Shown here: positions 36,301 through 39,300 of the stretch, piece by piece
How positions within the stretch are numbered: position 1 is the stretch's first letter
Layout: each line of letters starts with the position of its first letter
From: Branchiostoma floridae
Lineage: Eukaryota; Chordata; Leptocardii; Amphioxiformes; Branchiostomatidae
Reading direction: 5' to 3'
DNA: 64,000 nt
NCBI RefSeq assembly: GCF_000003815.2
Contig: NC_049983.1
Span: forward strand, 19,930,338 to 19,994,337
Position numbers and translations under genes: made by a program
Notes under the pieces: model-generated
What the model was told of the DNA's origin: nothing
The model's database searches: none
Seen by the model: the letters and a program-made list of their open reading frames with translations, nothing else

Positions 36301-39300
36301 TTCAGAACATACTACTTTGAAACATAACTTCTTGATTTGTGTGTGTTGAATTTGGACATTCTGTACAAATAACAAACTCATTTTCTTCATTCAGAGTGGA
36401 CTGACTGAAAGACACATATCAGTTGTATGCTATTTTACATAACATCAGTATGCCTATTATGTTGCGTTGCAGTGCCACCACTGCCCCACACAAGCACACG
36501 TTATACTGTTCTGTTCACAGGTTGAGAACCTTGTAGGTATCGAGCTGTCCTACATCAACACCAAACACCCCGACTTCGCTGACGCCAGCCTCATCTCCGC
36601 TCTCATCAGCAGCCAGGAGGTATGATGCATGTTAAACGCGTTGACGAGTTTCTCTTTTGTCTCCTTGCCCTCCCCACACCCCAGGTTGAGAACATAGTAC
36701 AAATAGAGCTTGCATACGTCAACACCAAACATCCTGACTTTGCCGACGCCAGCCTGGTCTCAGCGCTGGTTAACTCCAAAGAGGTATGGTCTCTGCTTGG
36801 TGTTCTATGGTCTCCTGTTGGTGTTCAGTCCTACTAACTAAAGATGGATCTAACAAGAGTTTTTTATTTTATGAATTGAAGTCTTGTATGTGTAATGCTG
36901 CGATTTTAGCCAAGCATTACCCCTTGGAATGAAATTGTTGAAGGAAGAATTTACTGCACTTCATTTACATTTGTTGTGATTTTATTTTACGATAGGGAAA
37001 ATGTTTTTTTTCGGTTCAAACAATTCTGTAGTACAGTAGTAATACATTGGAAATGAATCTTTACGATGTGAGAAATCAACGGTAAAGAGGTCACCACAAA
37101 AATAAAATCACCAGGAATGTCTTAAGATACTGTTGGATAGGATTAATGTTGTTATTTGGTTGACAGGAACTTCGAAAGCAGCAGCGGAACCGATCCGTCG
37201 GTCCAGGCGACCACGGCTTCCACTCTGTCCAAGCTGCTGAGAACAAACCTGCAAAGGTAGGGCTACAGGCGTGTGTCAAACATGTTAATATGGTAATACT
37301 GTGTATGTGTGCATGACTGGTCGTGCTGCTTGTCTGTGTGTTGTGGCACAAGCTGTCTTGTTGTCGCGCTGTATTCTTGCCGTATGAAATTTCATCTTTA
37401 CGTTCTGTGCTCCCCTCCACCTCCCAACATGGCATTATTTATTTTTTTGATAGCATTTTGAAGGAGGGGCACAAGAATTTTGTCACAAGAAATTTTGTAG
37501 TATTCAAATAACAACATGTCAAGGTCTAATAGGAAGGCAAAACATTAATATTTCTTTTTACTGTCATGAACACTTTCATTTTCTATGATGAGGGGCAAAC
37601 TACCAGGCCCGCATGGTTGTATGCATGTAAAGAAGCCCACAAGTATACAATATGTATTAAGTTCCTACAACCTGTAAAAATCTCCTTTTCTACTTATGTC
37701 CCCTAGCATCACTGTTACCAAATCCTGGCTTTTGTATCTTTTTGCCTATCTCATCTTTTACCAACTTTTACCAACATAATGCTAACCCTCTTGTAGCTTA
37801 GAAAGCTAAGTTTTCAAACCGAATGAACTTTTTCGTCCATGCTGCGTGTCTGGGTCATTCAGACTCAGTCGAAGATTCTGACCAAAGTCGGTCTGAACCA
37901 GGAGAATTGGAGCGCGCCAGTGTCCCCCGCACCTACGGTCAGTCGTGTCGATTTCATAGCCATGTGTCGTCTCTGCGCAGTTGTGTTAATTAATCGTCCC
38001 ATTTGCCAAGTTTGAGAAAGAGAGTATCAAGAATATCTGCAGGGTTTTCCTGGTGTTTATTGCAATGCTTCAGGGATGGAGTAATTTTCTGAAAACCTAA
38101 ATTGATCCAGTAAAATCTATCACACTTCTTTCCTTAAAAGTAACCTTAACATAAAGGTTTGCTGTATTTTTGTGATCTTAACACTACATTTTCCTACTGT
38201 TAAAGCTGCTATTTACCAGTGTCAAAGTCAAGTTAGAATTTTCTACAAATTCCGTGTACAAGGTTTAAGAATTGTTCTGTTTTCTTCAGAAACTAGTCCA
38301 GCTTTAAACCATTTTTTTTACATTTGAAAGCCATGATAAAGACTTCCAGATGATTTTATCTTCTTATTAATAAAGTTATCACAGTAGAAAATTTATAGAA
38401 CTCTTCTTCTGTCTCTGGGTTTGACTCTCATGGCTTGTTTTCTCCTCCCTGTTTGATGCCTTGAGGACCGGGAACATCTCTCCCTCCACCTCAAGGTGCA
38501 CCTGTACAGTACCACAGTACCGTAGTCAAGTTGGTTTTGCTGTTAAAGCTCTGTCCATGTCCTGAGTTGTCAAACCATGTCATTCCTCTTCAATTCCCCC
38601 TCAATGTTACATTAAGTCAAAGTGTTTGTAAAGAGTTTAATGGTACATTTGTACATGGTATACAGACATACACGCAGTGCCATATACAACATTACAAGTA
38701 GTGGTCCAACTTTAAGTTAGTTACAAGCTTTAGAAATTTTATGTATTCTCTAAATTTAAAAAAATCTCTACATCATGGTGATCTTTTTAGATAGTGTTAC
38801 ATTAAAAAAATAAATATATATATTAAACTTTCAGCTGATATATGATACATGTAAGATCAGAACACTCAACTGATGACTACTATGCAAAAGGTCTTCAGTA
38901 ATTTCCTGAATTGTCAAGGAGGAAAAAATAATGTTTTCCATGAAGGGAGTATTGGATATTGACAATTGTCCCAAAGAAATGATTGTTAAGGTCTTTGGTT
39001 ACTAACTTCTACATCATACTGTCGGTATGTAGAGACTCTATTGGTTGTGTATTTATCTGCAGTCCTCACCAGACAGTATAAATGGTACATCCTACATGAG
39101 ATCACACTCCAGGACATCCACAGGCTCTAGGGTGAATCCATCTCATACTCCCCACCCCCCTCCCCACTCACACTGTTTCAGCTTTCCATGTTTCCATCCC
39201 CACATCTGCTTTACAATAACCCTTGTCTATTAGATTAGTTGTGCCGGTCTCCTGTATGTACTAGTAGTTAGGCCTCAGGTATAGGATATATATGTGCTTT

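Follow-up and report, generated by a model that had tools for sequence, protein, structure and literature searches.

The 64,000-nucleotide stretch of Branchiostoma floridae DNA analysed here (the window) contains a Drp1 (dynamin-1-like) gene in which two homologous exons of equal length, designated 14a and 14b, stand side by side. Such an arrangement raises the question of whether the two exons are used one at a time and, if so, what keeps them apart and which part of the protein is exchanged. It is inferred, with good confidence, that 14a and 14b are a mutually exclusive pair derived from tandem duplication, in which the short intron between the copies is rarely or never removed and the segment at the end of the stalk is switched. 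The features on which the argument relies are collected in Table 1.

Table 1. Positions within the window of the Drp1 coding region, the exon pair with its splicing partners, and the elements of the intron between the copies
Feature	Coordinates	Strand	Description
Drp1 (dynamin-1-like) coding region	27380..43370	+	22 exons, ATG to stop; clean ORF, full-length Drp1 match, Pfam domains
Exon 13, upstream partner	35786..35875	+	Matches Drp1 chain residues 453-482
Exon 14a	36521..36619	+	99 nt, phase 0, 33 residues; matches Drp1 chain residues 483-505
Intron between copies	36620..36684	+	65 nt, GT/AG ends
Best branch-like motif, TTGAC	36641..36645	+	A at 36644 = +25, 40 nt before intron end
Pyrimidine-rich tract before 14b	36649..36682	+	26/30 nt C or T at 36652-36681
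Exon 14b	36685..36783	+	99 nt, phase 0, 33 residues; matches Drp1 chain residues 483-505
Exon 15, downstream partner	37167..37256	+	Variable-domain region

The identity of the gene follows from its domains and from its match to a known chain. The product containing 14a aligns over residues 1-748 with residues 1-736 of the Drp1 chain 8t1h ('Dynamin-1-like protein'), which we take to be human Drp1, with a score of 1097 bits. The product containing 14b matches the Pfam domains Dynamin_N, Dynamin_M and GED and has no PH domain; a variable insert occupies the place where the PH domain would be, and this is the composition that characterizes Drp1 (DNM1L). The isolated 33-residue copies score 19.6 and 21 bits, under the Pfam Dynamin_M cut-off of 28.5. 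Matches of 14a to two designed repeat proteins (E 3e-4 and 4e-4) were set aside, because the Drp1 matches are stronger (E about 4e-7 to 9e-7) and are joined by the whole-gene match. Among prokaryote genome contigs, 34 pattern matches were obtained and none was confirmed, which is unsurprising for a gene of animals.

The gene model includes 21 introns, all with AG acceptors, 20 with GT donors and one with a GC donor; this GC-AG intron follows exon 12 (35568-35785, donor CAG/GCAAGT). A 75-nt in-frame exon of 25 residues in the variable domain (40743-40817, AG/GT borders) could be an optional cassette. Two further features of the window lie on the minus strand. The exon at 21697-22995 gives Pfam matches above cut-off to NACHT, AAA_16 and the nephrocystin-3 N-terminal domain and represents a STAND-type NTPase, and the reading frame at 47251-47865, which contains repeated cysteine-rich units, matches the TNFRSF12A-type TNF receptor domain of Pfam above cut-off.

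The pair lies at the transition between two parts of the protein. The switched segment begins at human Drp1 residue 483 and ends near residue 510, the alignment being loose beyond 505. The human variable domain is taken as residues 497-607, or deleted as 514-602 (PMC6051998, excerpt), and the numbering of that source is assumed equal to that of the aligned chain. The end of the exon near residue 510 and the variable domain at 497-607 together define the segment as one that runs from the last part of the stalk into the start of the variable domain. This agrees with the border between stalk and variable domain named in the original prediction. The stalk portion of the segment is presumably the end of the third helix of the stalk.

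Exons 14a and 14b are both bordered by AG upstream and GT downstream, and they are phase 0 on entry and on exit. They are identical at 25 of their 33 residues and at 73 of their 99 nucleotides, and the residue changes (L/I, G/Q, S/A, I/V, I/V, I/V, S/N and Q/K) include four conservative hydrophobic ones. The splice sites of both copies are compatible with the common flanking exons 13 and 15, and a clean ORF of 748 residues results with either copy alone, while the frame also remains open with both (781 residues) or with neither (715). The copies are thus adjacent, similar in sequence, similar in length and equal in reading frame, the features by which mutually exclusive tandem exons are recognized. 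The original prediction had described adjacent, homologous 99-nt exons of phase 0, among whose differences were Gly/Gln, Ser/Ala, Ser/Asn and Gln/Lys; the coordinates, lengths, phase and identity were all reproduced, and each of these changes is present.

On the DNA level, the copies form a repeat of 107 nt (36518-36624 and 36682-36788) with 75.7% identity and an E value of about 5e-17 in blastn. The repeat takes in CAG and GTATG at its ends, which means that the duplicated unit contained both splice sites. When the 64-kb window was scanned in six frames without gaps, each copy found the other with a score of 137, and the runner-up for both copies, a stretch at 33464 in exon 8 of this Drp1 gene, reached 29 with copy A and 38 with copy B. 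Such a difference excludes chance similarity. No third or decayed exon copy was found in the 64-kb window, either in six frames or by blastn with E up to 1, in which the sole other match covers 20 nt (59216-59235, E 0.99). The tandem exon duplication in Drp1 is therefore confirmed.

Two smaller repeats are located downstream of the pair. A 21-nt tandem repeat with 86% likeness (36785-36826) starts within the 14b donor, and its second unit reads CTATGG and so lacks the donor GT. In the intron between 14b and exon 15, inverted arms of 22 nt (36967-36988 and 37099-37120) are 86% complementary and 110 nt apart.

The divergence of the copies is old and constrained. The nucleotide differences at codon positions 1, 2 and 3 number 8, 3 and 15, respectively, and the comparison by the Nei-Gojobori method gives a dN of 0.168, a dN/dS of about 0.11 and a dS of 1.47, which, being drawn from 22.5 synonymous sites and near saturation, means that the duplication is old and gives no date. 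The synonymous excess between the copies is significant (Fisher p 2.5e-5), and the codon bootstrap places pN/pS at 0.10-0.44 (95% range), with 0 of 5000 replicates at or above 1. When 26 changes were introduced into copy A in neutral simulations, only 1 of 20,000 runs retained at least 25 identical residues and 7573 acquired a stop. The 11.5 nonsynonymous differences are distributed unevenly: codons 1-23, with 54 sites, contain 5.5 of them, and codons 24-33, with only 22 sites, contain 6.0, a pattern indicating stronger constraint on the helix end than on the part that leads into the variable domain. Such long and constrained divergence suggests that both 14a and 14b are probably in use.

The intron between the copies is the shortest of the 21 in the Drp1 gene model, the next measuring 117 nt. 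Its adenines are found at +3, +6, +10, +15, +16, +17, +25 and +28; beyond a stretch without any from +29 to +56, the remaining ones are those at +57, at +59 and in the terminal AG. The adenines at +57 and +59, 8 and 6 nt from the intron end, are too close to it for a usual branch point. For these reasons, the branch point is most likely the TTGAC at +25, and would lie at +28 at most, provided that the branch base is an A. The 65-nt length, the TTGAC and its A about 25 nt from the donor had all been noted in the original prediction and were recovered here.

In human introns, the minimum spacing between donor and branch point is roughly 50 nt (PMC7969005 and PMC6692369, excerpts); splicing of MINX in vitro is abolished at a spacing of 46 nt, and the assembly on E1A at 35 nt (PMC6692369, excerpt). 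The predicted branch point of the Drp1 intron gives a candidate distance of 25 nt and a maximum plausible one of 28 nt, which is under the human value of about 50 nt and near the 27 nt tolerated by HNRNPH1. In the latter gene, a human intron of 56 nt is spliced despite its 27-nt spacing with the help of SPF45, which takes the place of U2AF65 on a truncated pyrimidine tract (PMC8363638, excerpt), and splicing is also reported for human introns 43, 49 and 56 nt in length (PMC4463651, excerpt). The HNRNPH1 case demonstrates that crowding alone is no absolute block. The Drp1 intron differs from it in having a long pyrimidine tract, which may or may not matter. Steric crowding is somewhat more likely than not to be a main cause of the exclusion. 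The steric part of the original prediction is therefore plausible, not proven: it agrees with a geometry below the human threshold of about 50 nt and with the precedent of OGDH, in which the spacing is 25-41 nt, and the splicing of HNRNPH1 at 27 nt speaks against it.

The exclusion itself has to be weighed against other uses of the two exons. As each copy is 99 nt long and of phase 0, the constitutive splicing of both would yield, in frame, a single Drp1 of 781 residues with two consecutive stalk-end segments. The 65-nt intron has GT/AG ends, the TTGAC and a good pyrimidine tract, and human introns near this size can be spliced (PMC4463651 and PMC8363638, excerpts). Against this stand the donor-to-branch spacing of probably no more than 28 nt and the conservation of the copies themselves, since a helix-end motif repeated inside a disordered insert would give no reason for their nearly equal identity to Drp1 chain residues 483-505 (19/23 for 14a and 18/23 for 14b, counted by eye). 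A stretch of 10 residues of the Drp1 motif is common to both, and the nearly equal retention of the motif favours substitution at one structural site over tandem use. In a survey of human exon pairs, highly similar non-repeat exons were considered unlikely to be both present in tandem, or both absent, in a folded protein (PMC5740500, excerpt). The counterpoint is that the second copy would stand at the disordered insert, where 33 extra residues might be tolerated. Constitutive joint splicing is judged improbable; because the joint product keeps the reading frame, the exclusion would have to arise at the splicing step. Slightly less probable still is that a single copy serves as the normal exon, its neighbour being a minor or dying one which is seldom included. 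The splice sites, scored with the pattern from the gene's own sites, give this idea some ground, as the donor scores are moderate and the acceptor of 14b is weak (3.69, compared with 9.41 for 14a). The donors nevertheless score alike (6.93 and 6.57), and a dN/dS of about 0.11 with neither stop nor indel in either copy at a dS of about 1.5 speaks against it. No splice-site score of the pair falls outside the values of the other sites in the gene, and the pyrimidine content before 14b exceeds that before 14a (26/30 vs 17/30).

Another alternative concerns only the mechanism and overlaps with the mutually exclusive reading: the exclusion would be real and would be imposed by regulators or by RNA pairing rather than by branch-point crowding. 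In the human survey, potential steric interference was found in only 57 clusters (9%) (PMC5740500, excerpt), and a 27-nt spacing can be tolerated (PMC8363638, excerpt), both of which leave room for such control. No intron of the gene model is shorter, however, and this one is without adenine from +29 to +56; moreover, pairing of the docking/selector (Dscam) type did not emerge from the duplex predictions. These covered both exons, both short-range introns and the final 250 nt of the upstream intron. Of the 10 pairwise duplexes, each set against 100 shuffles, none was unusually strong, in what is a weak test made on this sequence alone. Even in the strongest case, 33 of 100 shuffles equalled or surpassed the observed energy, and in 3 of the 10 comparisons every shuffle paired more strongly than the real sequence. 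As the pairing does not rise above the shuffles, no second exclusion mechanism is supported. Control by regulators or pairing is regarded as less probable than not, though clearly more probable than the other two alternatives. Among the points that weigh against mutual exclusion by crowding are the in-frame joint product, the HNRNPH1 case at 27 nt, the weak 14b acceptor and a pairing no stronger than that of shuffles. The original interpretation is supported in part: the tandem duplication, the position at the stalk/variable border and the mutually exclusive anatomy stood, with both copies under constraint, the steric exclusion is plausible only, and an effect on assembly is possible.

According to the mutually exclusive reading, one Drp1 exon would have been duplicated in tandem along with its splice sites, and the copies would now be spliced into two alternative proteins of 748 residues, Drp1-14a and Drp1-14b. 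The short intron would rarely or never be spliced out because its plausible branch points are at most 28 nt from the donor, and the transcript would be completed either by joining 14a to exon 15 or by joining exon 13 to 14b. The switched part would comprise the end of the third stalk helix together with the beginning of the passage to the disordered variable domain, and the isoforms would probably differ in the coupling of the variable domain to self-assembly at the stalk base. The stalk forms assembly interfaces, the variable domain reportedly limits premature assembly and directs helical assembly, and the PH domain of dynamin, which stands in the place of the variable domain, masks the stalk-base interface (PMC5478127 and PMC6051998, excerpts). 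Two of the exchanges, Gly/Gln at residue 6 of the segment and Ser/Ala at its residue 10, could change the stability or the surface of the helix, and the consequence of the exchange would most likely be a different holding of the variable domain.

The two Drp1 forms may mean two forms of the fission machine, and homologous alternatives placed where stalk and variable domain join would offer a natural experiment on the control of assembly. The 65-nt intron is likewise a compact test of the minimal branch-to-donor distance in this lineage. More tentatively, it may be proposed that the lineage evolved, apart from the dynamin 10a/10b exons of vertebrates, a Drp1 stalk-base switch which sets the restraint of the variable domain on self-assembly and so tunes mitochondrial/peroxisomal fission by tissue or stage at a constant level of Drp1.

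An earlier report of such a Drp1 exon pair was not found in the literature searched, which was covered in part. Judged by titles, the papers found on Drp1 and amphioxus include nothing on Drp1 splicing, and none was found that treats mutually exclusive exons, dynamin and amphioxus together. Those found on mutually exclusive exons and Drp1 name no such pair by title, and the excerpt of a coconut crab study makes no such claim; among the matches listed for Drp1 splicing and amphioxus exons, no title names one either. The available part of PMC4465641 covers DNM1/DNM2 and does not mention DNM1L. According to the original prediction, no vertebrate Drp1 is known to have the pair, and the excerpts on mammalian splice forms agree as far as mammals are concerned (PMC6824841, PMC9354038 and PMC11467262, excerpts). 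This kind of exon pair is known, its site within Drp1 is not described in the portions of the literature consulted, and both isoforms may already be listed in a database.

Several known systems can be compared with the Drp1 pair. The classic example of exclusion through an unusual branch-point location is alpha-tropomyosin, reportedly described by Smith and Nadal-Ginard in 1989. In that gene, a long distance separates the branch point from the acceptor and the intron is longer, in contrast to the Drp1 pair, in which the entire intron is 65 nt. In human OGDH, exons 4a and 4b are kept apart by branch points 25-41 nt from the donor (PMC7969005, excerpt). OGDH and, on the reading proposed here, Drp1 place tandem exons of the mutually exclusive type around a size-restricted intron; the OGDH gene is unrelated, however, its branch points were mapped experimentally, and its intron measures 118-131 nt in birds and mammals (PMC7969005, excerpt).

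Drp1 itself is alternatively spliced in mammals, where exons A and B belong to the 80-loop of the GTPase domain and exons C and D to the variable domain (PMC6824841, PMC9354038 and PMC11467262, excerpts). Exons A-D represent alternative splicing of Drp1 that alters its regulation, as 14a/14b would, and they differ in place, since they belong to the loop of the GTPase domain or to the variable domain rather than to the end of the stalk. The available text of these sources on Drp1 splice forms contains no alternative version of the stalk-end exon. In human ovarian cancer cells, shortened Drp1 transcripts were described, some of them terminated behind exon 14 through early polyadenylation and others in intron 17 (PMC11467262, excerpt).

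Comparable in kind is the pair of exons 10a/10b of vertebrate dynamin 1/2, which are mutually exclusive and encode residues 399-444; a mutation in 10a disturbs self-assembly, and invertebrate dynamins are without the pair (PMC2916854). The possibility that the Drp1 pair occupies the same site was rejected, as both copies align to Drp1 residues 483-505 and exon 13 to 453-482. The alignment to dynamin-1 (4uud) ends at query residue 501, dynamin residue 496, and the pair covers query residues 480-512, so that the Drp1 exons belong to another gene and to another place, near dynamin residue 475 onwards and not 399-444. The Drp1 pair appears to be independent of the 10a/10b event. In both cases, a GTPase of the dynamin family has tandem homologous exons for its stalk (middle domain), of which dynamin uses one at a time, and Drp1 would be the second dynamin-family stalk to be diversified by exon duplication.
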